Shown: piece by piece, positions 2,726 to 62,325 of the stretch | Position numbering within the stretch: position 1 is the first letter of the stretch | Layout of the letters: every line of letters starts with the position of its first letter | Source: Rugalucina vietnamica | Lineage: Eukaryota > Mollusca > Bivalvia > Lucinida > Lucinidae | Reading direction: 5' to 3' | NCBI GenBank assembly: GCA_964017185.1 | Contig: OZ024872.1 | Coordinates: 41,112,188-41,176,187 of the forward strand | Length of the DNA stretch: 64,000 bases | Made by a program: the position numbers and the translations under genes | The notes under the pieces: generated by a model | The model's database searches: none | What the model was told of the DNA's origin: nothing | Seen by the model: only the letters and a program-made list of their open reading frames with translations

Positions 2726-2825
2726 ATGTACACTAATGTGTGACTGCTGTTTAACAAAATACCATGGTGACTCTACAGCTTGGACTTAAAATCTTAAAAA
2801 GTCCATACTTTTTCTAAAGACACCA

Positions 2826-2987
2826 GCTGCCGAAGGCAGCTTCGACCGGCCAGCCGTAGGCTGGCCGGTCGAGGTGTCTTTAGTATGTAAACACATTGTC
2901 CTTCCGAAGTGTCTTCGGCTGTTTCCGCCACATGCCGAACAAATACGAACGCCGTAGGCGTTCGTAAAAAAACACCGAAGGTGTTTT
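2826..2987. repeat. Cluster of five perfect short hairpins with 3-nt loops
   Basis: Five perfect inverted repeats lie in 162 bp: 2826-2840 (6 bp stem, GAA loop), 2843-2871 (13 bp stem, GTA loop), 2904-2918 (6 bp stem, TGT loop), 2945-2965 (9 bp stem, GTA loop) and 2969-2987 (8 bp stem, GAA loop). Four have a GNA triloop closed by C-G. The stems differ in sequence, so the shape and loop are shared rather than the word. Confidence 0.9.
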
Positions 2988-3128
2988 AAGAAAATGATCA
3001 AATAAAATGAATTGCATAAAAATATGTTTTTCAAAATATTTATGTATACATTTTCAATAAATGATTTTCTAAATAAAATACGGAATCGACCGAACTGGGT
3101 GGCCATATTGTTTTGGAATGGATCCATC

Positions 3129-3240
3129 ATATTTTTTTTTCACCAGCTTATCGAATCTCACGTTATGCGAAACGCGGGTACCATAGCGTTTCCGGGTCTC
3201 CGTAGCAACGGCAAGGTTCTAAAATTATTGAAAATCTAAC
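3129..3240 (+). repeat. Left copy of a ~110 bp repeat flanking the hairpin satellite region
   Basis: This segment, beginning with a T-run and CACCAG and ending near GTTCTAAAAT, is clearly similar to 5168-5275. The two copies bracket 1.9 kb that includes the hairpin satellite. Confidence 0.7.
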
Positions 3241-4084
3241 GCAATGCAGCAAATGATGAACGTTTCTCGAGATTTCAAGAGCTATTTGGAGTCGCTCGCT
3301 GTTGGACAGTTGTAATTACAGATGCCGGAGACTTTAAAGTGATAACTGACGTAGAAACAAGTTGTAAAATCAGGTTAACGTGAAACAAATTCAGGAGGAA
3401 GTCGTCATTCGAAAGTGAAAGTACAGGTGTAAGTTTAACACAAACAAGTTTTATGATGGTTGGCCCAGTTTTCGTGGTACTAATAATTCATAGGCATCTC
3501 CTGGATAACAGAAACAGCTCATAGCTTAAATAAATATGGAATTATATAAAATAGACCTTGACATTCTATGTCCATCTTACCTTTTCATGGCAAATCTGTT
3601 TATTGATTACATAGACGCCATTTTGAATGACGTATTGATCTTTGACGTCATCAAAAGTAAGGCACCAGAATTCGTGGGTCATTCAAAAAGTGGCTGGAAA
3701 TTTCAATGCGTCAGTAAATTCTTATCAGATTTTAATGTCTCATGATTTTATCACACCTTGTGAATTGAAATAAGTAAATTTGAAAATAATTCACTGTCAG
3801 ATGTGATAATAGAAACATTTTAAAAACATTTACCAATTTTGAGTAAAGCTTAACACCCATTCAGAATCAAATCAATGAGAAAAATTGAACAACCCTCACT
3901 AAAACATTTTTTAAATATTTTTCTTGCACAATATGGATGACATACGCTGGTAAACTTGACGACTTGTGAGAAAATACAGATTCAGCTGAAAAACGTGTAT
4001 ACCACGAAAACTGGAACCACCACGAAAACTGGGCTAAGTACCATACTCTTCATATTTAACACATTTTGTACATTCACTAACTGC
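3241..4084. other. Unannotated AT-rich stretch
   Basis: No gene, RNA gene or clear repeat is seen here apart from short similarity of its final part to the following satellite. Confidence 0.4.
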
Positions 4085-5155
4085 CACAGCCAGCACAACC
4101 AAAGTTTTGTGTTCCTATTTTGGTTGGCGTCACTGTCTATCAAAGTGTCTTAACTGCCGTAGGCAGTTTTCGGTTTCTGAGATGGATGGCATCACTGCCT
4201 ATCAAAGTGTCTTAACTGCCGTAGGCAGTTTTCGGTTCCTGAGATGGGTGGCTTCACTGAGACAGTTGGCGTCACTGTCTATCAAAGTGTCTTAACTGCC
4301 ATGGGCAGTTTTCGGTTTATGAGATGGATGGCATCACTCTCTATCAAAGTGTCTTAACTGCAGTTTTCGGTTCCTGAGTTGGGTGGCTTCACTGAGACAG
4401 TTGGCGTCACTGTCTATCAAAGTGTCTTAACTGCCGTAGGCAGTTTTCGGTTTCTGAGATGGATGGCATCACTCTCTATCAAAGTGTCTTAACTGCCGTA
4501 GGCAGTTTTCTGTTCCTGAGATGGGTGGCTTCACTGAGACAGTTGGCGTCACTGCCTATCAAAGTGTCTTAACTGCCGTAGGCAGTTTTCGGTTTCTGAG
4601 ATGGGTGGCTTTACTTAGACAGTTGGCGTCACTGCCTATCAAAGTGTCTTAACTGCCGTAGGCAGTTTTCGGTTTCTGAGATCGATGGCATCACTGCCTA
4701 TCAACATGATCAAAGTGTCTTAACTGCCGGTAGGCAGTTTTGGGTTCCTGACATGCATGGCTAACTGTCCATTAAAGTGTCTTAACTGCCCTAAGGCATT
4801 TTTCGGTTGCTGAGACAGTTGGCGTCAATGTCTATCCAAGTGTCTTGACTGCTGGTAGGCAGTTTTCCGTTCCCGAGATGGATGGCCTCACTGTCTGCCA
4901 TAACTGTTTTTGGTTCCTGACATGCATGGTTATTACTGTCTATTAAAGTGTCTTAACTGCCGGAAGGCAGTTTTCAGTTCCTGAGACTGATGTCCTCACT
5001 GTCTATCAAACTGTCTCTCATTTGCTTAGGCTGATGTCCTCACTGTCTATCAAACTGTCTCTCATTTGTTGAGGCTGATGTCCTCACTGTCTATCAAACT
5101 GTCTCTCATTTGTTGAGGCTGATGGCCTCACTGTCTATCAATGTGTTTTTTATGC
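4085..5155 (+). repeat. Hairpin satellite, alternating ~62 bp and ~80 bp units
   Basis: A unit containing AAGTGTCTT followed by a hairpin AACTGCC-GTA-GGCAGTT is repeated about twelve times. Hairpin starts are at 4152, 4214, 4294, 4355 (loop deleted), 4429, 4491, 4571, 4651, 4722 and 4784, with degenerate copies near 4848 and 4955. Spacings are mostly 61-62 or 80, with 74 and 71 as exceptions, so there are two unit types. The last ~200 bp is a different tandem of about 55 bp built on CTCACTGTCTATCAAACTGT. Confidence 0.9.
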
Positions 5156-5167
5156 CAGAAGTCAGTT

Positions 5168-5275
5168 CTGTTTTGTTTTTTTTCACCAGTTTATCAATTC
5201 TCAAGATTTGCAAAAACTGAGTACCAGAGCGTTTCAGGGTCTCCTTAGCGACGACAAAGTTCTAAAATAACATGC
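5168..5275 (+). repeat. Right copy of the ~110 bp flanking repeat
   Basis: Partner of 3129-3240, in the same orientation. It begins with a T-run and CACCAG and ends GTTCTAAAATA. Confidence 0.7.
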
Positions 5276-5549
5276 CGAATATGCAGCAGCAGGAACCCTT
5301 AAATCCAGAAGCTGCAAAACTTTCTGTATCGAGCAGCTATAAAATCGAAGTTGGGAAGCTTTTAATTTGTTTGTTGTCCAAGGAAATGCATTGAAGTCCG
5401 GATTTTAGTCAAACAGGAAGTGACTTAGCCTGTTTGAACCATTAATGAAAGACATTCGGAAAGTGAAAGTAGAACAATGAATAATTGTGCAGAGGCTCAA
5501 ATGAAAGTAAAACGCTAAACAGACTAGACAATACACAACCCAAAAGACT

Positions 5550-5785
5550 GTAAGTCAGTGACTCACAAGTTATATCAAGCACCAGCCGGCAGCTGCAGCC
5601 TGTGGTTGGTCTGTGTCTTTACTGTCCATACACCATCCTCCAGAAACTATGTTATGTGTCTCTTCTAAAGACACCAGCTTTTCTAAAAACACCAGTCAGT
5701 GAATCACAAGTTTTATCAAGCAAGCAGCTCGATGTTCGGTGTCTTTACTGCCCAAACACCATCCTCCAGAAACTATGAAAAATTG
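5550..5785 (+). repeat. Two-copy tandem repeat, ~130 bp
   Basis: A block with ACAAGTTATATCAAGCA, then GTGTCTTTACTG, then CACCATCCTCCAGAAACTATG occurs at about 5560-5650 and again at about 5705-5778. It shares GTGTCTT and CACCAG words with the hairpin region upstream. Confidence 0.65.
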
Positions 5786-5975
5786 TGTCTTTTGAAAATT
5801 TCTAAATGCTGTAAATCTGGAAATGTTTGCGAGAATATAATTTTCGCTAATATTTGTGAATTCGTTGTCTCGCAAAATTAAGTTCTCGCTAATAAAGAAT
5901 TACAATAAGATTTAAAAAAAAAATATCTGTGTGTTTATCCTGCTGCGGCAGCTTATCTAACCCGTACGAAACATT

Positions 5976-6310
5976 TCGCCAGTAAAAGAGACAGATTTTT
6001 TTCTTAAATTTTGCACGGAAATTTGTTAATTGTACGCCTCTAGGACTTAAGACAATACATTAGTTTCCGTGCGGAATCTGGGCTTAAAGGTGGGGCGTAA
6101 TATGCTAATTAGATGGAATTTTGCAAACTTGTCTGGACGGAAAATCAAAAAAACTTCCGGGTGGGATCCAAAAAATTTCTGTGCGGAATCTGGGCGTAAA
6201 ACAGAGGTAAAATATGCAAATTAGACGGAATTCTGGTAAATTTTCTGGGCAGAAATCAGAAAATTTCCGGGCGTAATTGTAAAAGGTTCTGAGCGGAATT
6301 ATTTGTATAC
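5976..6310. repeat. Short tandem repeat, ~115 bp unit
   Basis: GTGCGGAATCTGGGC recurs at about 6070 and 6181, each followed by a GTAATATGC or AAATATGC word and a TTAGA(T/C)GGAATT word. A partial third copy is near 6290. No coding signal. Confidence 0.6.
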
Positions 6311-7083
6311 ACAAAGACCTTGACTTTCAGTTTCAACACACCTTTTCTATAGCATAGAATATATTATATAAACATTGAATAACTGACACGTAAGCATGAT
6401 GAAACATGCATATCAGTGCTTTTCAACTTTTTGGGCGGAATTATGATTTCGGCTTCCTTTCGCCTAGAAAACAGGTTTGATGCCCCAATTACGCCTCATT
6501 TACAGGCAGAAATTCCGCCCCTAAATTTCGTACGGGCAGTCTCGACTTTAAGATGCATAACATGTTTTCTCATGATATGTATGGCTCTTTCTAAAAAGGT
6601 TGTCTGTCTTTATTTCAGTATAATGGCCAATGGTTGGGAAGGTTGGTTGAAAGATGCAGAGGGGCAGGACTCGGCTGATGCGGTACTCAGAACAGCTAGC
6701 TCATCACTTTTTGTGATTCAGTGAGCAGTATTTTAGGTATGTACATGTATGTAACTTTTGTATACTTCTTATTCTAAATACTTTTAAAGTAGAAATAACC
6801 TGCAAAAATTAATAGAATCTGTGAAACTCAGTGGCAAGGGTTTGATGACTAGAAATGTGATGTACTAATAGTCTACAGATCATAGCTCTTGATAAAGTGT
6901 TTTCTAATCTGCATCTGCAAAATACACAATTTTATCATGACAGTGGCTGCTTACACATGGGCTTGTGACAAGGAACAATATAAGCCAGGCTGCATATCCC
7001 GTGAAATGTTAAAACTATGAAAGATTATGTTGTGAAATAACCACCACTGTGTGAAATTATTCGTAAAATAGATCAGACTGTAG
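6311..7083. other. Unannotated stretch
   Basis: A 102-codon open frame at 6416-6724 has no recognisable domain and no supporting context; I do not call it a gene. Nothing else stands out. Confidence 0.35.
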
Positions 7084-7410
7084 TATAATTCGGCATATAG
7101 GTCACTGTATGGGCGTTACCTCATGAATAGGTTATTGGGTATGGTCTACATTTGACTTAGGTAAAAGCTATAGGTATACAGTTAAAAGTTTTCCGTTAGA
7201 AAATAAGAATAAAATACGAGTTTGTCTAATTCACTGGATTGGACAAAATACAGGTAGCTGATTTCTAGCGGTAAATATGTGACAGTGGTCCAGGCTGACT
7301 GAGTTCGACTATTCTCTAATCTCCCTACTTGAGCAGATAGACTAGCCGACCATGCCCAGAAATGAATATTAAAGTTGCCGCCTATACAGTGACCTATTTG
7401 CCGAATTATA
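7084..7410. mobile_element. 327 bp TIR element (MITE), TA-type ends
   Basis: About 32 bp at the left end (TATAATTCGGC... from 7084) pairs with the right end (...GCCGAATTATA to 7410) with two mismatches. The outermost TA on both sides fits a TA target duplication, as in Tc1/mariner-type elements. No transposase frame is present, so it is non-autonomous. Confidence 0.85.
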
Positions 7411-7653
7411 TGTTTCTGCATGAATTCAATAAACATAGCTTATGATGTAATCTGCATGAATGGATGAAAATTGTGTTTCAAGATTGATTTATATAAAAAA
7501 TATGCTATGCCTTCATCTCAAACACTTTCTTATGCATGATTTCTATTATCTTTCAGCATGACCATGTTGAGAGGCAGGGGATGTAATCATCCATGACTCA
7601 CTCCACAAACCAGAAAGCTCAAGGATGGATTATTTGTTTCTGATGATACATTG

Positions 7654-7995
7654 CAGTGTTAGAAATAAGACCGATACAGTTACTTGTCCGAGGGGCAACC
7701 TGAGAGTGTTTTGAACTTGCCCCATGGGATTCGAACTTGCCCATACTAAAACGCTAATTTTCACGAACAAAGCTGTATTTTGGTTTTTAGTTTTGTATAA
7801 GTTAAATAGCTGTTTCAAGATTATTGCACTGCTCTCAAGAGATAAAAAAATGTTTAAATAAGTAAAACTACTTGAACAAAATTAATTTTCTGGAATTTTA
7901 GGTTGTCCAGGGGGCAACCTTACAAGTCAATCAACTTGCCCCCAGCAATTTCAACCCGTGGGGGGCAAGTGGGCAATTGCTTATTTCTAACACTG
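7654..7995. mobile_element. 342 bp TIR element with CATTG target duplication
   Basis: The ends are perfect 16 bp inverted repeats, CAGTGTTAGAAATAAG at the left and its complement at the right. Directly outside both ends is the same 5-mer CATTG (7649-7653 and 7996-8000). The CAGTG terminus is hAT-like, but hAT elements normally make 8 bp duplications, so the superfamily is uncertain. Internal GGGGCAA words occur on both strands. No transposase frame. Confidence 0.88.
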
Positions 7996-8499
7996 CATTG
8001 TCAAAAACTGTATAAATGAAGAAGGACACCATAACAAGCACAGCTCTGACAACCAAGTTTAATTTTTTCTTCATCATAAATATTAGACTGGTCAAAGTTT
8101 GTGAGACTTTCAGTGTCAGATCTATATCACCAAGGCCAGCCAGTTGTCCTAACTGATAAATGTAATAAACAGTACTGCTAATAAGTTAATGCTGATATTT
8201 TTATGCTCAGTTGAATTGAGAATGAAAATGGTTTTATACTGTTAACCACAAAGCAAAGATCTTCTCATGACACAGTCCAAAAATGGGAAACAAAGAAAAC
8301 AGAAATAAATAAAGGAATAGAGTGCAATATTGTCTGTTTCATGTCAAAACCATACATGTACACATTTAGTATTGATGTGCATGGTTATGGTTTACACCAA
8401 ACCTCTTTCAAAGGGGCTTACAACCAGGTTAGATGCACACAACAGGCTTTATAAAAATCACAAAAGATATGCATGAAATTTGGCGTTTTATGGAACAGC

Positions 8500-8630
8500 G
8501 AAGGCCTGGTGGTAGAGTAGCAAATTCCTGAGCTAGAGGTCCTGGGTTCCATACATTTGCAGTGTAGTGTCCTTGAGCTCTAATAATATTGCTTATATAC
8601 TCAGAAATGGCTGGTCCACACAACATGACA
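8500..8630 (+). mobile_element. tRNA-derived SINE, copy 1
   Basis: An A-box-like TGGTAGAGTAGC is followed about 30 bp later by a B-box-like GGGTTCCATAC, then GTGTCCTTGAGC as in the copies at 8868, 36594 and 62930. Confidence 0.65.
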
Positions 8631-8867
8631 GAAAAAATGATATTCTGCCATAACCAAACTAAACCAACAAAAGACTTTAAGAATAAGAATAATTGTTCTG
8701 TATATATTTTGAGCTATAGCTTCGACGATAGTGTCTGATTCATAATGAAATGGGCCTGACAGGCATTCCACATACAACACACTTCTTTCATGAAGATCAG
8801 GTTATAAAGCAAACAAACTAAAAAGCTATGTTATGTCTACATTGTAAAAAAATGAGTTCACTTAAGG

Positions 8868-9058
8868 GAAGCATGGGGACCTTGTGGTAGAGCATCGGAC
8901 TCTCAGTCAAGAGGTCTTAGGTGGGATCAACACTCCAGGTGCTATGTTTTGTCATTGAGCAACACACATTTTAAAACTACCCACTGGTAAATACTCAGGG
9001 AGTGGGGGCTCTGCCCTGACATGACTGCAACATTGTTGACTAGGACTTTCTGCACCCA
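8868..9058 (+). mobile_element. tRNA-derived SINE, copy 2
   Basis: It starts GGGGACCTTGTGG, with A-box-like TGGTAGAGCATCGG and B-box-like GGGATCAACACTCC. The body contains TTGAGCAACACACATT and ends ATTGTTGACTAGGACT, a tail also seen at 36594. It abuts a Helitron-like repeat. Confidence 0.75.
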
Positions 9059-10140
9059 TTATAGCTCACATGAGCCCTTAGGCTCACAAGGTGAGCTTTA
9101 TGTGTAGCCATGATAGGGCGTTCGTCCGTCGTATGTCCACATTTTCAAAGATCTTCTTTGAAACTGCTTGGCCGATCAAGTGAAATTTTATGTCAAGCCT
9201 CCATGGGTAGGGGAAAGAAAGTTTGTTCACGGGATTCTTGACCTTGACCCAAGGTCATTTAAATCAATATTATTTTGTTTGTTTTTTTTTTGTCAGAAAT
9301 CACGTGGCTGATCAAGTTGATATTTTATGTGGAGCCTTCTTGGGTAGTGGCATTGATATTTTGTTCACGATATCTTGGTTACATGACCAAGATGGCCGCC
9401 ACACCCAAATATGGTAAAACTTCTTTAAAAATCTTCTTCTCCAGAACCAATCGGCGGATTTACTCGAAATTTGGTTTGTACCTTTGGGGACTCCAGCCAA
9501 TCATAGTTTGTTCAAATGATGACCCTGGTATGACCTTGACATATTTTATGGTAAGTTCAATTTTGGAAACAAAGGCTTTTACATGGGGAAAGGCGAAAAC
9601 AATGGATATTTTGGAAACTGTTTCAGCCTGACACTTGAAAGTTGCTAGATGCAGACAACTAATGGAGCCAATGAAGGTATGTAATTTATTAAGGCCAAGG
9701 TCATTTATTGACCTTGACCCAAGGTCTCCATGCTTAGGGGGAACAACATTTTGTGTGCAACTAGTCTGGGTCGAATACTGACAGTGCTCAACACGGCCAC
9801 ATGCCAACAAATGCTCAAAATATTCTTCTCCTGAACCGGTGGGCAGATTTTCACGAAGCTTGGTATGTAGCATCAGGGACCTTATCCCATCATAGGTTGT
9901 ACAAATGATGACCCAAGGATGACCTTGACCTATTTTACAGCATGTCAATTTTGGAAACTGGCTTTTACATGGGAAAAGGTGAAAATGCAGCCTGAGACCT
10001 GAAACTTGACAGATGCAGAAAACTAATGAAGTGAATAAATGTATGACATTATTCAAAGTGACTTAGGTCAAGGTCATTTCAATATGAATGCTCCAAGATC
10101 AGGCTTCAGGTGAGCGTTCTCAGGACCAATGGTCCTCTGA
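9059..10140 (-). mobile_element. Helitron-like non-autonomous repeat, copy 1
   Basis: One end is a hairpin AGCTCAC...GTGAGCT (9062-9098). The other ends at GGACCAATGGTCCTCTGA. Read on the minus strand the element begins TCAGAGGACC and ends in a hairpin followed by CTA, which is Helitron-like (5' TC, 3' hairpin). The interior has TGACCTTGACC-type words and is homologous to 37911-39242 and 46763-48924. A 198-codon minus-strand frame (9460-10056) lies wholly in this repeat and is not a gene. Confidence 0.65.
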
Positions 10141-12286
10141 TTAAAATGTTCCTAACACATCATGTTGTGCTTTGACAGAAACTTAACAAAGTGCAAGTTA
10201 ACCAAATAATGAAAGACTTTTGTGTAATGAGACATTCATGTAAACATATAGAAAAGTAAGTAGCCTTTTCATAGAATCATCGTGATCACTATGATTTGCA
10301 TCCCGACATCACATCAGGCACTTGCCATTGACGAAAAAAGAACAGAAGTTAAATTTCGCAAAATAACCCACATGCTTTCGGTAAAGGCTGGAAATCAGCT
10401 GTCATTAAGTATTGCCAAACGTATTACACCATCTTGAGCTCACCTGAGCTTTCTGGCTTACAAAGTGAGCATACAGTTTACATATGCTCTCACATCCCAG
10501 ATCGCTGCAACCTTGAGGACAATCCGGCATATAGCCAACTCCATATATATGTACTTACACCATCATATCAGTGTCAGTGACTGGCATACCAAATCTTATT
10601 GCTCAAGCTTTAAACAGTAACTGAAATTGTTCTTAGGACTGGTGTTTCTGATACCCGTTGTTGGTTTTTGCCTAAACTCTGGATGAAACAGAGTATATAA
10701 ACTCCCGCAGCTTTGCTGCTTTTTCTTGTTTTCCTGCGTAATGAAGTTTGTATAACAACGAATGGATAAAAGAAAATATGAAATAAGAGCTAAATACCGA
10801 CATACTGATGATAATAAATGTGCAATTTTTCAACGCACGCGTCTGTAAAAATGACATGGAGCTATTTCTGAAACTATGGCCAGAAACTTCTTGTTCGCAC
10901 GAACATTTACCTCAATGCTATCCGGCCTGTTTGTAGGATTTATCAATGTTGGGAGCCATCTTTGTCACTGACAGAAAAAAAATGTTACAGGACGCGAAAT
11001 ATCACCGTGCGCTGTGCGTTTTTATTTTCAAGACATAAAAATGCATTATTCCTTTTCTCTGTAAGAAAATTAGGCTGAATGATGAAAATACGTAAAATGT
11101 CGCTTATGCATAAACACATATATGTACTTGTTAAAAATCTACTATATGTGACAGGGTTACAAGGAAGCAGATTGAAAACTACATTCTGTTGGAATCTGAC
11201 ACTTGCTATGAAGTTTTTGAAATAAGACAGTTGTCAACTATCACTTATGCCTACTTATTCCTCTTAAAATGCTCATTTACATGTTTATTTTGTTTTTCTA
11301 TTCATATCATTCGGCATCCAGCATTCATCAGACCTGTATTATTCCGATTTAATCAAGTTTTCTTCTACATTTCATTTCGAATGCGCATATACATGTACTT
11401 CAAGTTGGCAATGATTTAAACAGTTAGCGTACATAATGTTTTTGATTGAGAATAGAGATTTTAAAATGCCGAGATTGGGTATTTCTATCACTTGATCTGT
11501 TTAAGTTCCTTGAACATCTACATACGAATGGCGAGAAGCAAGCAGCAAAATTATTTAGTCAAAGTATTTAAAAAGTCATATGCGTTGTTACGTATTGCTG
11601 AAACTTTTCAGGAATGCTGAACCTAAACATATATTTTATACAACGGCTTAGGAAAAGATAAACATATGTACGTGATTGTTCTGTGAATAGATGGTGAGTG
11701 CCAGCTATTGGCGAAATAATCAGAATTCGTATCTAACTGAGACCTACACATACTTCAAACCCACAACCTCTTTATACTTCAAGTACAATGTTCAATATGG
11801 TAAGCAGAAAGTATGTGATGGAGGCAACGTCCTGACATGACCATAGCTGTTGACTGGGATGTTAAGCATCAATTCTTGTAGAACGTCTGGTACTAGAAAA
11901 TCTTGGCGTTATATAAGTGTGTTTCCAATTCTATTCAATATTTAACAATTTTGCACGATGGAAATCATGCTCATCATTGCTTTGTAGTCTTAACCACAGT
12001 CTCAATACCTAGCTCATTTTTGAGCCTCATGAGATAATTGGTAGAAATTAATAATCTCAGCAGGAATATACATATTATTGCCTTACAATGTGGTCACTAA
12101 TTAGGACCACTTGGGATGGCTATTGAGCCACAGTATTTGTGATAAATACATGTAAGCATGATAATATCATGGCTTATGCGTTTGCATGGTTTTAACCACC
12201 ACTTTTCCTGGGCATGCCCATTTATTGGTTTAAAATATATGGTCAGTTAGGGCACGAGACTGTACTAAACTTTTAGTGACCATAAT
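10141..12286. other. Unannotated AT-rich stretch with repeat fragments
   Basis: A fragment of the Helitron-like terminal hairpin lies near 10437-10475 (GAGCTCACCTGAGC). A SINE-like tail with GTTGACTGGGATGTTAAG lies near 11840-11870. Open frames of 60-76 codons match nothing I recognise. Confidence 0.4.
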
Positions 12287-23450: not shown

Positions 23451-23686
23451 TGAGCCACCTCGTGGGAAAACCAACAATGTGGTTTCCGAACAGGTCCGAC
23501 ACAAAACGGGCTGTACAGCTACAGAAGCAGGCTAGAAGCTTGAAATTTTGGAGCTAAGTAGAGGAGGAATTGTGCTATCCGAGTAGCGAAAACAAAGGCG
23601 CTGATCAGCTTCGCGGTTACCGCGAAGCTGATCTGCGCTTTTGTTTTCGCCAATGCAGATTGTTGGTTTTCCCATGGGGCGGCTCA
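23451..23686 (+). mobile_element. MITE1 with 21 bp flanking direct repeats
   Basis: A complete 236 bp copy with the ends TGAGCCAC and GCGGCTCA. The 21 bp directly before it (23430-23450) and directly after it (23687-23707) are identical. Confidence 0.9.
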
Positions 23687-34358: not shown

Positions 34359-34580
34359 TGAGCCACATAAGAAAACCAACAATCTGCATATATGAAAACA
34401 AAGGTTGCAGATCAGCTTCGCGGTAACTGGGAAGCTGATCAGTACCTTTGTTTTCGCTACATGGATAGTACAATTAAACCCAAAATTTCCAGCCTCTAGC
34501 CATCTTCAGTGCTTGTTCAGCTTGGTTTGTGCCAGACCTGTTCAGAAACCACATTGTTGGTTTAATGATGAGATGGCTCA
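34359..34580 (-). mobile_element. MITE1 copy
   Basis: TGAGCCACATAAG to GATGGCTCA, with the inner hairpin AGATCAGCTTCGCGGTAACT and its complement. Confidence 0.85.
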
Positions 34581-37910: not shown

Positions 37911-39242
37911 CCAGAGGACCAATGGTCCTATAAACGCTCACCAGAGATCTGGGATATGTGACTTAAGTTGACCTTGCCGTAAAATGGGTCAAGGTCATCC
38001 CAGGGTCATGATTTATATAAACTTTATAAAGCTCTATTGCCTGATGCTACATGCCAAGTTTCAATATCATAGGCCTTCTGGTTCTGGAGAAGAAGATTTT
38101 TAAAGGTTTTTGCTATTTATAGCCATGGCAGCCATCTTGGTCATGTGACCTTGACCTTTTATACAAATTTTCATTACCTCTTCCTAACGATGCTCCACAT
38201 TAAGTTTGGCTTTAATTGGCATAGCGGTTTCAGAGAAGTACATGTAGATGTTTGAATATTATGGTCATATACATGTATATAGCCCCAGGGCAGGGGCAAA
38301 CAACCTCCTGGGGTCAATTTTTTTCCGATAAACATAGATTTTCTGTCCATTTGCATACTCCCAGCAAGTTTCCCCCATTTAATTACATTTTACTAATTTT
38401 TCCCATTCGAATGCATTACCGACCTAAGTTGACCTTGCCGTAAAATATGTCAAGGTCATCCCAGAGTCATGATTTATATAAATTTTGTAGAGGTCTATTG
38501 CCTGCTGCATCATGCCAAGTTTCAAAATCATAGGCCTTCTGGTTCTGGAGAAGAAGATTTTTAAAGGTTTTTGCTATTTATAGCCATGGTGGCCATCTTG
38601 GTCATTTGACCTTGACCATTTATATTAACTTTCATTTCCCTCTTTCTAAGGATAATCCACATAAAGTTTGGCTTTGATTGGCCAAGCGGTTTCAGAGAAG
38701 AAGATGATTGAATATTATGGTCATATACATGTATATAGCCCCGGGGCAGGGGCAGACAACCCCCTGGGCCAAAAATATTTTCATAAACATAAATTTTCTG
38801 TCCATTTGCTAATTCCTAGCAAGTTTTCTGCCATTAAATGAAAATTTCCTATTTTTCCCATTCAAATGCATTGGCGACCTAAGTTGACCTTGCCGTAAAA
38901 TAGGTCAAGGTCATCCTAGGGTCAAGATTTATATAAACTATGATGGGCCCGTATCCCCGATGCTACATACCAAGTTTCGTGGAAATCGGCACACTGGTTC
39001 AGGAGAAGAAGATTTTTAAAGGTTTTTGCTATGTATAGCCTTGGCCGCCATCTTGGTCATGTGACCTGGACCATTTATATAAACTTTCGTTCCCCCTTCC
39101 TAAGGATGCTCCACATGAAGTTTGGCTTTGATTGGCCAAGCGTTTTCAGAGGAGAAGATCTTTGAAATTGTGAACGACGGACGGACGACGGAGCATGGAT
39201 ATACATAAGCTCACCTGTGAGCCTTCGGCTCAGGTGAGCTAA
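37911..39242 (+). mobile_element. Helitron-like non-autonomous repeat, copy 2
   Basis: It starts CCAGAGGACCAATGGTCC and ends in the hairpin AGCTCACCTGTGAGCC/GGCTCAGGTGAGCT followed by AA. Three internal units begin GTTGACCTTGCCGTAAAAT at about 37967, 38428 and 38883 (period ~458 bp). Each carries GGTCAAGGTCATCC and GCCATCTTGGTCA-type words. Confidence 0.75.
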
Positions 39243-40497: not shown

Positions 40498-42745
40498 ATT
40501 ACGAAAATTTGCCCCTGGAATAGGCAGAGAATCTTTTTTCAGCAAAAAAAATTCATTGTAAAAAAAATACTTTCAATATTTATGCTCAAAACATTAATTG
40601 TGGGTACACGATAGAACCGATGCGGTTCTAACGAGTACCCACAATCTATGTTTTGGGTCAAAAATAAAAATTGTAGACCCCAGTTTTACTATAATTTATA
40701 AATGTGGGGTTTAATGAAGGCCAAGACAAACTTCCTACGATGTATTGGTTACCTAAGCTTCACAAAAGACCATACAAAGCTAGATTTATTGCAAATTCTA
40801 GCTCTTGTACTACCACTGAACTTTCTAAATTATTAACTTCCTGTCTTACTGCTATCAAATCTCATGTTATAAGATACTGTGAGACAGTGTATGAAACTTC
40901 AAATAAAAATTGGTTTTGGTCAATTAAAAATTCTGGTGAGGTGCTCAGTAAATTGAAGTGTAGAGGGTTCCGTGCGACAAGCTTGTCCACATATGATTTT
41001 TCTACTCTGTATACAACATTACCACATAATCTAATTAAAGAAAAACTTCTGGATTTGATAGAGTGGACCTTCAAAAGGGCATTAAAAAAACTATGGTTCA
41101 CTTTATTTGGCATGTAATGACAGAAAGGCTTTTTTCACTTCCTCTGACCAAAGTCGGTATACACTTTGGTCATGTCAGAATGTATGCGACGCCTTATCCT
41201 ATCTCCTTGATAATATTTATATTAGATTTGGGACCAAGTTATACAGACAAATTGTTGGAATTCCGATGGGTACAAATTGCGCACCTCTCGTAGCTGATTT
41301 ATTTTTATACTGCTACGAAAGAGATTTCATGGATTCTCTTAACCATGATAATCAAGCTGATGTTATCGAGGCTTTTAATTCCACATCTAGGTACCTCGAT
41401 GACCTTTTGAACATTGACAACCCTTATTTTGAAGGTATGGTCAATCAAATTTATCCACCTGAACTTCAGTTGAACAAAGCCAATATCTCAGATACTGAAG
41501 CCCCCTTTTTAGATCTACATCTTTCTGTTGCAAATGGATTTGTTTCTTCTAAAATTTATGATAAGCGCGATGACTTTGATTTTGATATAGTAAATTTTCC
41601 TTTTTTGGATGGTGACGTTCCTCGTCGTGCTTCTTATGGTGTATACATTTCGCAACTTATTAGGTTTGCTAGAGTCTGCAATCATGTTACAGACTTCAAC
41701 GCTCGAAATAAATGTTTAACGGCAAAACTTCTCCAACAGGGCTATCGGTATCATAAACTTCGAAAAACATTTTCTAAATTTTATCGTAGACACTATGAAT
41801 TGATTTCCAAATATAATGTTGGGTTAAAGACGCTTTTAAGTGAGGGCCTTTCGGAACCTGAATTTTATGGTGACTTGGTTTACAAATTTAAGAAACTTAA
41901 AGGAATTAATGATTTTTCTTTTCAGTTCAGAAAAATCATAACTCGTTACAGACGTATAGGTTATAACTTAAATGTTATGCGACAGTCTGCATGCTTAGTT
42001 TTTAACCCAATCATGGTTGATAACTATGCTGCCTTCTTTAATTGCACGCCGGTGAGTCGGGCGTCAGACTCTATGATGGCCCCGACATAAAGCTATTCAT
42101 TTTAGTTGGTTGGGGCCGGAGCTTCTTGTCTGTTGCTTGGCCCACCGGGGTCCAACTGGTGTTTTTCTTTTGCTCCGGAGTTAGTACGTTATTCGGCGCC
42201 CAGGGATCTCCATCGTCGGGCAGCTTACTCAGTCTATGAGTCCTGGTTTTTGATCCATCAGGATGTTTATCATGATTTATTTGTTTGTTCTTGATGATTC
42301 ATTGACTAGTTAGAGATTCACCACGAGGACCGAATAACTAACTAAATGTTATGAACCACTGCAGAAGCTGAGGGTGAGGTTATGGCCATGTAAAACCGGT
42401 TTAAGCCCGCCAGTAACTTTGTGTTACTGATCGTTCCAAGTCGATACTTCTGTGGTGGTTCTTTTTGTTTTATGTCTTGGTGTTTAAAAAATTTTTTGTG
42501 CTGTTGGCGCCTTATGTATGTTTTCATATTTTTAGTTAAGTTAAGGTAACTGAGTGGCCACCTATTGGGAAAATAGCTGCTCATTCGGCTTACGATATGT
42601 TTCATGGTATAAGTACCTGATTGTTAGTTTGGTTTTTTCCCACCTCGGTTTTTGGAGTGGGAATCTTTTTCTGATTGCGCCTTTTCCTGATCTTTGCCTA
42701 CTTGTACCCTTTTAAGGGGGTATTACATGGGCATGTTTTCGTGAT
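40498..42745 (-). mobile_element. MITE2 split by a reverse-transcriptase insertion
   Basis: The left portion (40498-40714: ATTACGAAAATTTGCCC, the central palindrome and the ACCCCAGTTTTAC hairpin up to GTGGGGT) and the right portion (42711-42745: AAGGGGGTATTACATGG to GTTTTCGTGATG) join to give the normal MITE2 order. Confidence 0.85.
40715..42710 (+). pseudogene. Penelope-like retroelement, 5'-truncated, RT frameshifted
   Basis: This 1,996 bp insertion is flanked by TTTAA on both sides (40710-40714 and 42711-42715). Two overlapping frames (about 40704-41117 and 41107-42090) encode one reverse transcriptase. The first has the LPTMYWLPKLHK entry and the STYDFSTLYTTLP palm segment. The second has GIPMGTNCAPL and the catalytic YLDD (residues 96-99 of that frame), then FLDLHLSV. 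The reading frame slips in an A7 run near 41088. The RT type matches Penelope-like elements, and the C-terminus ends at a natural-looking stop without a GIY-YIG domain. That suggests a clade with the endonuclease at the (missing) N-terminus, such as Naiad; this is inference. A short further frame (42106-42294) follows. Confidence 0.82.
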
Positions 42746-46762: not shown

Positions 46763-48924
46763 TTAGCTCACCTGAGCCGAAGGCTCACAAGGTGAGCTTA
46801 TAGGATGGCCATGATCCGGCGTCCGTCCGTCGTCCGTCGTCCGTCCGTCCGTCCGTCCGTCGGCGTCGTCCACAATTTCAAAGATCTTCTTCTCTGAAAC
46901 CGCTTGGCTGATCTAGTTGAAATTTTATGTGGAGCCTCTTTGGGTAGTGGCATTTCAAGTTTGATCCCGTAATCCAGGTCACATGACCAAGATGGCCGCC
47001 ACGCCCATATATGGTAAAAACCACTCAAAAATCTTCTCCTCCAGAACCGGCTGGCCGATTTTCATGAAACTTGGTATGTAGCATTGGGGACTTCAGCCCA
47101 TCATAGTTTGATAAAATGATGACCCTTGGATGACCTTGACCTATTTTACGGCAAGGTCAAATTTGGAAACATAGGCTTTTACATGGGAAAAAGTGAAAAC
47201 TATGGATTTTTTGAAAACTATTGCAGCCTGAGGCCTGAAAAGTGGTAGATGCAAACAACTAATGGAGTAGATGAAGGTATGTGATTAATTTAGGTCAAGG
47301 TCATCTCTTGACCTTGGCCTGTCTGTCGTCCATACACACTTTTCAAAGATCTTCTTCTCTGAAACTGCTTGGCCAATCAAAGTGAAATTTTATGTGGAGC
47401 ATCCATGGGTAAGGGAGATGAAAGTTTGATTGCAAAATCCAGGTCACATGACCAAGATGGCCGCCACGCCCATATATGGTAAAAACCACTCAAAAATCTT
47501 CTTCTCCAGAACCGGCTGGCCGATTTTCATGAAACTTGGTATGTAGCATTTGGGACTCCAGCCCATCATAGTTTGATCAAATGATGACCCTATGATGACC
47601 TTGACCTATTTTACGGCAAGGTCAATTTTGGAAACATAGTCTTTTACATGGGAAAAAGTGAAAACTATGGATTTTTTGAAAACTATTGCAGCCTGAGGCC
47701 TGAAAAGTAATAGATGCAAACAACCAATGGAGTAGATGAAGGTATGTGATTAATTTAGGTCAAGGTCATCTCTTGACCTTGGCCTGTCTGTCGTCCATAC
47801 ACACTTTTCAAAGATCTTCTTCTCTGAAACTGCTTGGCCAATCAAAGTGAAATTTTATGTGGAGCATCCATGGGTAGGGGAGACGAAAGTTTGATCGCGA
47901 AATCCAGGTCACATGACCAAGATGGCCGCCACGCCCATATATGGTAAAAACCACTCAAAAATCTTCTTCTCCAGAACCGGCTAGCTGATTTTCATGAAAC
48001 TTGGTATGTAGCATTTGGGACTCCAGCCCATCATAGTTTGATCAAATGATGACCCGAGGATGACCTTGACCTATTTTACGGCAATTTCAATTTTGGATAA
48101 ATAGGCTTTTACATGGGAAAAGTGAAAACTATGGATTTTTAGAAAACTGTTGCAGCCTGAGACCTGCAAACAACTAATGGAGTAGATGAAGTTATGTGAT
48201 TAATTTAGGTCAAGGTCATCTCTTGACCTTGGCCAGTCTGTCGTCCATACACACTTTTCAAAGATCTTCTTCTCTGAAACTGCTTGGCCAATCAAAGTGA
48301 AATTTTATCTGGAGCGTCCATGGGTAGGGGTAACGAAAGTGTGATCGCGAAATTCGGGTCACATGACCAAGATGGCCACCATGCCCAACTATGGTAAAAA
48401 CCACTCAAACATCTTCTTCGCCAGAACCGGCTGGCCGATTTACACGAAACTTGGTATGTAGCATTTATGACTCCCAGTCCATCATAGTTTGTTGAAATGA
48501 TAACCCTAGGATGACCTTGACCTATTTTACAGCAAGGTCAATTTTGGAAACATAGGCTTTCACATGGGAAAAGGCGAAAACAATGGATATTTTGGAAACT
48601 GTTGCAGCCTGAGACCTGAAAGTTGCTAGATGCAGACAACTAATGGAGTCATTGAAGGTAAGTAATTAATGAAGGCCAAGGTCATTTGTTGACCTTGACC
48701 CAAGGTCATTTAAATATCAAAATTAAAATTATGGTTTTCTCAGAAATCACTGGGTTTAAAAACTATTGCAGCCTGAGACCTGAAACTTTGCAGATTTCAG
48801 ACAACTTGTGAAGTCAATAAAGGTGTGTGAGTATTCAAGGTCAAGGTCATTTCATGATGACTTAATACTCCAAGATCAGGCTTCAGGTGAGCGTTCTCAG
48901 GACCAATGGTCCTCTGGTCTCTGA
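46763..48924 (-). mobile_element. Helitron-like repeat inserted in the Penelope relic, copy 3
   Basis: The left end is the hairpin AGCTCACCTGAGCC-GAA-GGCTCA...GGTGAGCT and a CGTCC run (46810-46863). Four internal units begin TTTCAAAGATCTTCTTCTC near 46876, 47340, 47806 and 48255 (period about 450-468 bp). It ends GGACCAATGGTCCTCTGGTCTCTGA. Nearly every unit has CAAGATGGCCGCC and TGACCTTGACC words. The Penelope reading frame resumes on both sides. Confidence 0.85.
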
Positions 48925-57825: not shown

Positions 57826-60115
57826 GTTAGTCAGATTCTCTGTACTGGCCAAGTGTTGAAGGCAGGGCGCTGTGTTTCTGCCTTCAATGAAACCAAGGGC
57901 ATCTGCTATAAGGTATTCCTAAAAATAACACCCGTAGAAAAAGCGAACCACGACAGGGAATCAGAGGATGAACATTTACAAGCTGCACTAACACAGCCTG
58001 ACTTTTCGGAACTACATGTACTAGATTTTCACAACCAGAATATCCCTCTCCAAACTTACCAACTCGTCCTTGTAACCAAACACCACAAAACTGTTCATCT
58101 CTAATTGATAACCAGTCACCTCAAGGCCCTTTACCTCCAGCAAGCCACCCAACCCCTCCTGATGATCATTTACCACCGGACCACACATCACCATCAGACA
58201 ATCTTTCACCGTTAGGCAACTCAACACCGATAAATCAAACATTTTCACCATCACCTTCAGGCTACCATTCACAACCAACAAGGTCATCATCTAATGTTCC
58301 GATTTCTGAAAGCCAAACGCGAACACAAAAGCATACACTAATCAAACGTTCTTCGGAAAATGAACTAAGTGAATCATATTTCTATGCAAGAGAATTAAGT
58401 AGCGCCATTGGCAATGAAATTACAAAACTTAGATAATTTATACTTGGATAATCATTTCAAAGTTGTCATTTTCAATGCTTCGGAATCGAAAGACAACAAT
58501 GCCACCATACCAGGCGTATTTGTCGCTGAAGTATCTATCTTTGGTAGGGACTATGTTCACACAGACACATTGGTTGATGGTATTCTACAGATGTTTGAAA
58601 ACAATCAAAGTCAGTTCAAGGTATGGGATAGACTTATGAACGTTGACAAACTACATTCTACTAGGATAACTCGCCTTGAGGAAGGCAATAGTAATGGATC
58701 ATACGCATCACATATCACAGGCAACCTGATGACTCATATCTATGAATCAGAAAAAAATCAAAAAAAAAAAAGGATAAACGATAGCGAAATAGAAATCCTA
58801 GATTATAATGTTTAATGTAGAAAATCAACACCACATATTATAACACGGTTCATCAACTGTCCACGTGTAAAGCTCGAACGTTCGTCATTCTCATGGTAAT
58901 TAAATAGTACGGGTATAATGATCAGACATAGATAATGCAATGTTTAGACGAGACGGCGAGTCTGGTATTTTGATATGTCGTGAAACGTTTATGGACGCAG
59001 TTGAAAACACATTAATCAAATCTATATACAAAGAGAACGCTGTATATCAGGCTGATGCCGAAGGTATTGTCTCTCTCACATTGAGCTGCATCTCCGTTTT
59101 CTGTCTCCTTCTGACTCTAATGACATTTATGTTATTCCCAGCCCTACGGACTCAACCAGGATTGAACAATATGTTTCTGTCGCTGTTCTTTATTGGGGCA
59201 TACCTTGCCTTATTTTTAAAGCATCACAAACTAAAAGTGCTATTGGATGTAGCATCCTAGGGGGCATAGTTCACTTTTGTTGGGTTCTAGTTTTCTTCTA
59301 GATGAATGTTTGTTCCATCCATATGTTTAGGGTATTCAGATCACTTGGACGACAATCGCATTCTTCAATCAACTTTTGTTTAACCTTATTCCGTTATAAG
59401 CACCTTGGTTATAATAGGAATCAATACTGCTGTGAGTCTTTATATCAGTAATGGTGAAACTTATAGCTATGGACTAATTAATAACAGTCTGTGTTACATA
59501 CGTTACCCTTTGATGGTTTTACTCACGATGGAATTGCCTGCAAATCTCATCGTTATATCAAATGAGCCGCGACGCGACAAAACCGGTCTTCGGGGTTTCC
59601 GACCAGGTCTGACACAAACCGGCCTGTGCAGCTACAGAAGCAGGCTAGAAGCTTGAAATTTCGGATTTAAGAAGAAGAGAAATTGTACTATCCGTGTAGC
59701 GAAAACAAAGGCGCTGATCAGCTTCGCAGTTACTGCGAAGCTGATCTGCGCCTTTGTTTTCGCATAGGCAAAAATCCGGTTTTCTCACGATGCGGCTCAT
59801 TAATCTCATCATGTTCTTTATCATTTCTATGAAGATCAGGGACAGTTCTAAAATTCAGAAACATACTCAAAAGGACAGAAACTACGTCTTTCTATATATG
59901 CACGACTGTCTACAGTTACAGTGTTAACTTGGCTTTCATCGATACCAACGGTATTAACTGGGTATCCAGTTTTCGCTTACATTTTCAGTGTTCTAAACTG
60001 CAATCAAGATATTTTCATCATTATTGCCTTTATTTGCAACAAGAGAGTTGTAAACCTGTACAGGAATATGATCGTACGACCAGGTTCTCAAACAAGTCAC
60101 GCCTCTGACAGCTAG
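57826..60115 (+). pseudogene. Family-B/Methuselah-like GPCR, stalk and 7TM exon, copy 2
   Basis: Duplicate of 52590-54630 with its own acceptor (ATTTTCAG, AG at 57824-57825). The first segment is in frame through VLKAGRCVSAFNETKG, where copy 1 is broken. Damage includes loss of frame in the stalk near 58035, a missing CTT/TTA-type codon region near 58428, a stop where the frame should continue near 58815, loss of sequence before FRRDGES, a TAG in the third membrane segment (59299-59301), and a MITE1 inserted at 59563-59799 in the TM5 region. The 3' end is better kept than copy 1: TM6-TM7 with PTVLTGYPVFAYIFSVLNC continues to a normal stop at 60115. No exon A or B lies upstream, so copy 2 probably never encoded a whole receptor. 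Confidence 0.85.
59563..59799 (+). mobile_element. MITE1 inserted in GPCR copy 2
   Basis: TGAGCCGCGACGC to GATGCGGCTCA with a near-perfect inner hairpin (59699-59763). Copy 1 has the uninterrupted sequence ATATCATATCTCATCATG at this point (54354-54371), a natural empty site. Confidence 0.95.
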
Positions 60116-62053: not shown

Positions 62054-62325
62054 CAGGAAAACATGCCCATGCAATATACAGAGATTCTTAAAGTTGTTGA
62101 AAATTAAAATTTCTGTAGAAAAAATTTGATATTTTTCTTATTTTTGCTCAAAACATAGATTGTGGGTACACGTTAGAACCGCCTCGTCGAGGCGGTTCTA
62201 ACGAGTACCCACAATCTATGTTTTGAAGCAAAAATAAGAAAAATAGGTATACTCCTGTAAACCCCAGTTTTACTATAAAAAAGTGGGGTTGAAGGGGGTA
62301 CTTATTTCATGGACATGTTTTCCTG
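62054..62325 (+). mobile_element. MITE2, full-length copy
   Basis: 272 bp from CAGGAAAACATGCCCATG to CATGGACATGTTTTCCTG. It has the complete central palindrome (GAACCGCCTCG/CGAGGCGGTTC at 62176-62199) and the CCCCAGTTTTAC hairpin. The equivalent place in copy 1 (about 56345) is empty, so it inserted after the duplication. Confidence 0.95.

Follow-up and report, generated by a model that had tools for sequence, protein, structure and literature searches.

Features of the locus

The window is the whole stretch of DNA analyzed here, 64,000 nt of contig OZ024872.1 from the lucinid bivalve Rugalucina vietnamica. Its genes include Kelch/attractin-like, secretin-family 7TM and DUF829 genes. A pair of adhesion-GPCR-like genes occupies 52.6–54.2 kb and 58.0–59.3 kb (7tm_2 is found in the first, and the second is alike by eye), and a pair of DUF829 genes, both found by Pfam, occupies 55.4–56.3 kb and 60.8–61.5 kb; the segment 52609–61490 is thus a local tandem duplication of the two kinds of gene. 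An open frame at 41086–42090 is reverse-transcriptase-like by eye and has no Pfam match, and a SECIS_1 match (42065–42132; 37.4 bits, E 0.00069) overlaps its end.

The main subject of this study is a cluster of hairpins at 2826–2987 (Table 1). The initial annotation had listed five perfect hairpins there and had read four of their loops as C-GNA-G. When the whole window is scanned for 3-nt loops closed by perfect stems of 6 bp or more, all five hairpins are found, each with a 3-nt loop and four with C-GNA-G, but three of the stems had been listed 1 bp too short: the maximal stems are 7, 14, 6, 10, and 8 bp. In 5000 dinucleotide shuffles of 2801–3000, the stretch that holds these five triloop hairpins, such hairpins number 0.05 on average and never exceed 2. 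Over the whole window, there are 55 triloop hairpins of at least 6 bp (25.4 in shuffles, n = 100) and 11 C-GNA-G hairpins (0.07 in shuffles, n = 100), six of the latter being copies of one tandem-repeat hairpin, AACTGCC-GTA-GGCAGTT (4152–4667).

Table 1. Coordinates in the window of the element and of its hairpins, repeats, and arrays
Feature	Position	Strand	Description
Dispersed mobile element	2812..10728	+	5'-TTCTAAAGACACC...GCAGCTTTGCTGCTTTTTCTTG-3'; exact paired tips, differing flanks, empty site
Outer stem, 5' arm (5' subterminal inverted repeat)	2814..2824	+	CTAAAGACACC; 2 nt from 5' end
Hairpin 1	2825..2841	+	7 bp, GAA loop; within outer stem
Hairpin 2	2842..2872	+	14 bp, GTA loop; within outer stem, abuts hairpin 1 directly
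Outer stem, 3' arm	2873..2883	+	GGTGTCTTTAG
Hairpin 3	2904..2918	+	6 bp, TGT loop
Hairpin 4	2944..2966	+	10 bp, GTA loop
Hairpin 5	2969..2987	+	8 bp, GAA loop; arms AAAACACC/GGTGTTTT
Tandem array	4121..4896	+	62/80/142-nt units; carries AACTGCC-GTA-GGCAGTT, six times with GTA and once with ATG
Second tandem array	4982..5141	+	44-nt unit
Degenerate internal copy of the T-shaped tip	5663..5749	+	Model R1, 17.4 bits, E 0.026; borderline
Subterminal 3' inverted repeat	10676..10694	+	ACTCTG...CAGAGT; in a predicted fold with unremarkable energy (z -0.45)
3' terminal hairpin	10707..10719	+	GCAGC-TTT-GCTGC; 5 bp, TTT loop, 9 nt before 3' end

Two of the other perfect triloop hairpins in the window lie outside this element. 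A 31-nt perfect hairpin, GATCAGCTTCGC[R]GTTAC[Y]GCGAAGCTGATC, with 14 bp and a TTA loop, is found at 23603–23633 and 59716–59746 and in degenerate form at 34410 and 61810. Its pattern has 42,798 matches in the genome (21,390 + 21,408; reversed control, 0); among 100 listed matches, 67 have the G..C form, 31 the A..T form, and 2 the mixed form G.T. The 28 copies that were fetched include the further stem forms TTCGC/GCGAA and TGTGC/GCACA, and the stem often extends through GCGAAAACAAAGGCGC/GCGCCTTTGTTTTCGC. At 62171–62203, a perfect 15-bp hairpin, CGTTAGAACCGCCTC-GTC-GAGGCGGTTCTAACG, lies in another dispersed repeat, in which copies of the element described below are inserted (L021, L062).

A predicted T-shaped fold at the 5' end

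The initial annotation overlooked that CTAAAGACACC (2814–2824) is the perfect 11-bp complement of GGTGTCTTTAG (2873–2883). This outer stem encloses hairpins 1 and 2 and makes of them a T-shaped three-way junction, in which only the two loops are unpaired because the hairpins abut each other and both arms of the outer stem. Folded as single-stranded DNA, the 73 nt at 2812–2884 form the T in 76% of the ensemble, at -38.0 kcal/mol (z -12.9). The 201-nt region as a whole also folds well beyond expectation (z -11.4), with hairpin 3 unformed: in the minimum-energy fold of the whole region this hairpin (2904–2918) is absent, and its 3' arm pairs elsewhere. The arms of hairpin 5, AAAACACC and GGTGTTTT, are similar to the subterminal repeat, and a weak inverted match (2810–2824/2980–2994, 87%) lies inside the 5' region. 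The exceptional stability that had been ascribed to the GNA loops does not emerge from the energy model, which gives both strands about equal energy and does not favor the GNA strand.

The cluster as the tip of a dispersed element

The 1.09-Gb genome (47 contigs) was searched for copies of the cluster and its surroundings. With 2790–3010 as the query, there are 157 candidates, of which 40 were scored (window copy included) and are 98–100% identical; the 39 other matches begin in the T run that precedes CTAAAG or where this run ends (query 10–20). Downstream, a query of 10600–10735 gives 152 candidates, and of 40 scored, 38 stop at query 130–136 and two at 117. An exact 27-mer of the 5' tip occurs at 113 places (61 + 52) and an exact 25-mer of the 3' tip at 124 (64 + 60), each against 0 for its reversed control. 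The 3' tip was located by comparison of copies and by a head-to-tail junction (see below); the boundary is uncertain by one or two Ts.

Of the 100 listed 5' tips, 90 lie on C1–C13, the contigs that the list of 3' tips covers. For 80 of these 90, an exact 3' tip follows downstream on that strand at a distance of 4.9–27.1 kb (median 8.3 kb), and at least one of the remaining ten (C11:22394549) has an inexact 3' tip 12.8 kb on. Among 34 distinct 5' places, no two upstream flanks are alike in register at the boundary, and among 30 3' places there is one pair of like flanks (L074/L075). These two loci, 99.6% identical in their flanks, are the two that were fetched from three exact 3' tips on the minus strand of C1 (49882600, 49888536, and 49894472) with a spacing of exactly 5,936 bp, which are probably a tandem array. 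The element ends in CTTG followed by T in 29 of the 30 fetched 3' loci and in CTAG followed by T in one (L072). The identical perfect T is found in 32 of 34 fetched 5' tips, although young copies scarcely vary and are over-represented among the fetched loci (30 5' and 30 3'), which are the best by identity.

Thus, the hairpin cluster is almost certainly the tip of a dispersed element that inserts without target duplication. The element is 7.9 kb long in the window, with the cluster as its 5' tip, and it is a recently active mobile element with more than 100 copies in the genome. The earlier suggestion of a transposition signal is supported: paired tips, flanks, and an empty site place the cluster at the exact 5' end of such an element. 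Compared with the copies at L009–L013, the window element is 91–99% identical over the first 430–650 bp and only about 70–91% over much of the interior. From these identities, the tips look younger or more homogenized than the interiors.

Insertion site and head-to-tail junction

About 1.4 kb past the 3' end of one copy (C1:14354654–14362782), the sequence of its 5' flank recurs without the element, 99.6% identical over 250 nt. The empty site reads CCCAAAAACTTATTTTTGTATTTGGTGTC, whereas the occupied site reads CCCAAAAACTTATTTTT, then CTAAAG...CTTG, then TTGTACTTGGTGTC; at the boundary, ..CTTATTTTT|GTATTTGG.. is replaced by ..CTTATTTTT|CTAAAG...CTTG|TTGTACTTGG... Insertion at this one complete empty site (L010/L068, a sister copy) took place inside a T5 tract, without target duplication, and the best assignment gives two of the Ts to the element. 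At six further insertions (L062, L052, L061, L021, L023, and L043), one-sided matches to repeats that are not interrupted agree, allowing for the length of the T tract and the divergence of the repeats. TT precedes CTAAAG at 34 of 34 5' places (TTTT at 30 of them), and T follows the 3' tip in 30 of 30 loci. At L036 (C2:65056646–65071518), two full-length elements stand head to tail as CTTG-TT-CTAAAG, with exactly TT between them; this junction is either a rolling-circle product or an insertion at the boundary Ts of a resident element.

The 3' end and the interior

The fold of the 3' end is no stronger than that of shuffled sequence (z -0.45), and a 3' copy of the 5' inverted repeat has no statistical support. 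One candidate, CTGGTGTTTCTGA, matches the complement of 2814–2826 at 9 of 13 nt (p 0.21), and with repeat lengths of 15, 13, and 11 nt from 2812 the values are 0.19 (10 of 15 nt, at 10639–10653), 0.71, and 0.30.

The interior holds two tandem arrays, which are variable in other copies of the element; AACTGCC-GTA-GGCAGTT sits in the 62-nt unit of the first (4121–4896). The window copy has no stop-to-stop frame of more than 200 aa. Long frames are present in L009 (1280 aa) and L076 (1243 aa); both encode endonuclease-reverse transcriptases (Pfam RVT_1), which we read as nested insertions.

Diverged copies of the T also occur inside several copies of the element and are better preserved in L010 and L012–L015 than in the window. 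A covariance model (R1) built from three near-identical tips gives 24 matches at E 5e-8 or better in the nine sources searched, six of them tips and 18 internal; the resulting alignment (A3, 24 rows, six of them tips) was fitted to the structure of the model and leans towards it. Over 14 distinct sequences, tips and internal copies taken together, 91.1% of cells pair, against 88.4% in shuffles (0 of 500 as high) and 25–46% in slid controls. Pairs changed on both sides number 5 against a shuffled mean of 2.7, a value reached by 27 of 500 shuffles, and cells changed on both sides number 11 against a mean of 4.0 (0 of 500). The stem of hairpin 2 has 14 bp at the tip and 6–9 contiguous bp in internal copies, with both arms shortened. 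The T shape is thus partly kept inside the element, with modest covariation. The initial annotation had taken the differing stems to imply compensatory conservation of shape; pairing above the shuffles speaks for this, whereas the number of double changes (5 against 2.7) and the near-invariant young tips lend it little weight.

The C-GNA-G loop motif

CC-GNA-GG loops are concentrated in the element. Across seven element stretches, G-N-A lies on the same written strand in all C-GNA-G hairpins, and C-TNC-G is found in none. The motif AGCTGCCNNNGGCAGCT occurs at 227 places, and in the 50 listed the loop, read on the GNA/ANA strand, is GAA 27 times, GCA 15, ACA 6, GTA 1, and CAG 1. Likewise, AACTGCCNNNGGCAGTT, which represents the AACTGCC/GGCAGTT hairpin of the 62-nt array, occurs at 796 places genome-wide, with GTA 37 times and ATA 13 times in 50 listed; both sets of loop counts come from related copies and are not independent events. 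Loops in internal copies are often ATA or ACA rather than GNA. Since C-GNA contains a CpG, such ANA loops would be the expected product of cytosine deamination on the other strand.

Outside the element (137,267 bases), the 98 distinct triloop hairpins include three that read C-GNA-G on one strand or the other, compared with 0.2 of 55.5 in shuffles. The number expected with random loops for that many C-closed hairpins is estimated at about 2.4, so the C-GNA-G hairpins outside exceed the shuffles but lie near the random-loop level, and the strong bias belongs to the element. The idea of a free, genome-wide family of minimal DNA hairpins is therefore not supported. A genome-wide class of GNA hairpins was also sought with GCCGTAGGC and rejected (993 + 974 places, against 1370 + 1382 for the reversed control). 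A CC-GAA-GG hairpin is present in the window outside the element, as TGAGCC-TTC-GGCTCA at 39218–39232 and in the opposite-strand form TGAGCC-GAA-GGCTCA at 46773–46787; these TGAGCC/GGCTCA hairpins adjoin long satellite-like arrays with units of 455–465 nt.

Comparison with Helitron2 and Helentrons

The comparisons that follow draw on excerpts of the cited papers. Helitron2 is defined by a 5' inverted repeat, 0–2 bp from the end, that pairs with a downstream sequence to form a 5' hairpin, with another repeat and a hairpin at the 3' end (Bao and Jurka, 2013; PMC3627910). Like Helitron2, the element has a 5'-terminal T, a 5' repeat 2 nt from the end that pairs downstream, and a 3' hairpin. Unlike Helitron2 as it appears in those excerpts, its 5' hairpin is branched, with the loop replaced by two abutting triloop hairpins, its 3' inverted repeat is not convincing, and there is no RepHel gene in the copies examined. 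Helitron-1N1_CRe inserts between TTTT and T/C (PMC3627910); the element described here likewise enters between a T tract and T/C and leaves no target duplication. For CRe-1, 2, and 3, also of Helitron2, target duplications are reported (PMC3627910), so their absence from the element is not diagnostic by itself.

Helentron-derived HINEs insert at TT without target duplication and carry central tandem repeats (Thomas et al., PMC4067079; Vojvoda Zeljko et al., PMC7492417). In the oyster Cg_HINE, the left repeat and its complement are 1–12 bp apart, and an autonomous partner could not be assigned (PMC7492417). The element shares with Cg_HINE and DINE-1 the non-coding copies, the left subterminal repeat with a complementary inverted repeat, the central satellite-like arrays, the right palindrome, and T-rich insertion without target duplication; the lack of an assigned autonomous partner is shared with the oyster element (PMC7492417; PMC4067079). 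It differs from Cg_HINE, as excerpted, in that 48 bp separate the repeat from the inverted repeat, a gap occupied by two perfect hairpins, with more hairpins at 2944–2987.

The 5' hairpins of FoHeli1 and FoHeli2, Helitron2 elements of the fungus Fusarium oxysporum, are CAGCC-GAA-GGCTG and AGTCC-GAA-GGACT (PMC5148889). They thus have the same CC-GAA-GG hairpin center, and multiple 5' termini per element are found in Fusarium as well. Unlike the bivalve element, the excerpted FoHeli1 and FoHeli2 have a single unbranched 5' hairpin, encode RepHel, and insert after TNAT, where the next base is T in the legend and A in the text (PMC5148889). Short stems with three-base loops, a closing C:G, and G and A in the loop are also found in the early-promoter hairpins of phage N4, in which the closing C:G and the loop G and A are required for extrusion, at physiological supercoiling (PMC4496689). 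Unlike the hairpins described here, these are promoters for the phage RNA polymerase and, in that account, belong to no transposon. In Helraiser, exchanging the stem of the 3' hairpin leaves about 90% of activity, whereas changing the loop and closing pair has the same effect as removal of the hairpin (PMC4778049).

The element therefore shows T-tract insertion without target duplication, a 5' subterminal repeat that pairs downstream, a 3' palindrome, and central tandem repeats, all features of Helitron2 and HINEs, although central tandem repeats are usual rather than universal in these. A canonical Helitron1 (5'-TC, 3'-CTRR, between A and T) does not fit, since the element reads TTCT...CTTG and lies in T tracts, with one of 30 3' ends being CTAG. 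For the RepHel domain PF14214, there are 409 candidates in the genome, of which 150 were scored, and many have open frames of 2,500–3,500 aa; none of these 150 matches falls inside the 80 paired elements or within 3 kb of them. In one abundant RepHel family, the two copies sampled (L077 and L078) have a Helitron1-like 5' start and no perfect triloop hairpin of 6 bp in 2.8 kb. Another feature, seen in one RepHel family, is coding sequence in tandem repeats ahead of the Rep domain. Among the titles and abstract openings listed from the open-licence literature, none concerns a branched Helitron end; no paper in this literature pairs "helitron" with "CCGAAGG" as one word, the Fusarium paper spacing the letters.

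With no RepHel partner among the matches scored, an insignificant 3' repeat, an unremarkable 3' fold, and a Helitron1-like 5' start in the abundant RepHel family sampled, the element is called only Helitron2/Helentron-like. That it is of the rolling-circle type, Helitron2/Helentron, is likely, and with somewhat less assurance we take the cluster to be the 5' (left) terminal sequence of a non-autonomous Helitron2/Helentron (HINE)-type transposon that uses the mechanism proposed below. It is a known kind of mobile element with an unusual, elaborated (branched) 5' end.

Alternative explanations

The least unlikely alternative is that snap-back (template-switch) DNA synthesis, with CC...GG as primer and a loop of three bases, left the hairpins as by-products, in which case no function is implied. 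Such priming would by itself give different stems around one loop, and the GNA hairpins do share only CC-GNA-GG; the two arms of hairpin 2 are shortened together in internal copies as compared with the tip, and other abundant perfect triloop hairpins with other loops exist. Against this stand the perfect T kept by 32 of 34 fetched tips (though these copies are young and were chosen for identity), the fact that GNA loops frequently read ANA in internal copies, and the match between the position of the tip and that of the Helitron2 5' hairpin. We judge this explanation unlikely in place of a rolling-circle tip; the two are not exclusive, as snap-back synthesis could be how the hairpins arose. 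It is quite improbable that the hairpins act in RNA, whether within a folded non-coding transcript or as a small-RNA source, with the repeats as retroposed or read-through copies. Perfect stems would pair in RNA too, and no Rfam family at the gathering threshold covers the cluster, SECIS_1 elsewhere in the window being the only match, so any such transcript would not be of a known RNA family. The structure lies exactly at a DNA boundary, though, and the element has no poly-A end and no target duplication at the complete empty site, whereas elements copied from RNA normally leave target duplications.

The weak inverted match at 2810–2824/2980–2994 could be read as a trace of a cut-and-paste (MITE or foldback) element, and the hairpins as what is left of its terminal inverted repeats. 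The 3' tip does not match the 5' tip significantly in inverted orientation, and the empty site without target duplication and the head-to-tail junction also disagree with this origin, which we consider improbable to a slightly greater degree than an RNA; as a TIR (DDE) transposon or MITE the element lacks both terminal inverted repeats and a target duplication. An integrated linear-DNA viral end, such as a parvovirus-like (AAV-type) hairpin telomere, is suggested by the two triloop hairpins in an outer stem, which resemble the A/BB'/CC' fold of AAV. The inverted terminal repeat of AAV is T-shaped, with two triloop arms on an outer stem, and is present, inverted, at both ends. The element has a like T with two triloop arms but, unlike AAV, at the 5' end only: its 3' end is a different, simple 5-bp hairpin with no significant inverted copy of the 5' repeat, and the long frames in L009 and L076 are reverse transcriptases. 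The exact T signature is absent from viral contigs, and phage records give only four 31-nt matches (E 0.06–0.8). A viral or phage origin is accordingly very improbable indeed.

A proposed mechanism and its implications

To our knowledge, how the 5' ends of Helitron2 and Helentron elements are marked has not been established by experiment. The predicted T probably marks the start point of the element's copying enzyme. By analogy, the triloop hairpins may be read as extruded DNA structures, a reading to which we give even chances. On a supercoiled or transiently single-stranded donor, the CC-GNA-GG hairpins would extrude easily and offer single-stranded DNA on which the enzyme could land. That enzyme, an HUH-type Rep that an autonomous relative would provide in trans, would recognize the shape and loop of the hairpins more than the sequence of the stems and would nick at the T|T 5' boundary beside the base of the T, after which the displaced strand would be rolled off. 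The 3' hairpin and CTTG would help end transfer, and the circle or single-stranded DNA would then integrate at another T tract. As far as the excerpted accounts of Helitron2/HINEs, FoHeli, Helraiser, and phage N4 go, these parallels would make recognition of loop and shape at the 5' end a reasonable mechanism. The ATA and ACA loops of internal copies and the energy model, which does not favor the GNA strand, count against it.

More tentatively, CC-GNA-GG could be a structural code for the Helitron2/Helentron Rep at the 5' end that is shared by fungi and animals, in which loop and shape are read while stems drift, and some lineages could stack several such hairpins into an AAV-like T that multiplies as internal satellite arrays; we hold this as a conjecture that is rather doubtful. 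A young family with a perfect branched 5' hairpin, an exact boundary, and a loop motif shared with fungi would make such a recognition code concrete and testable. A T tract followed by a 5' T of triloop hairpins may also serve as an annotation signature for elements that are otherwise hard to recognize, and the family ties hairpin-bearing satellite arrays to the tip of a transposon.
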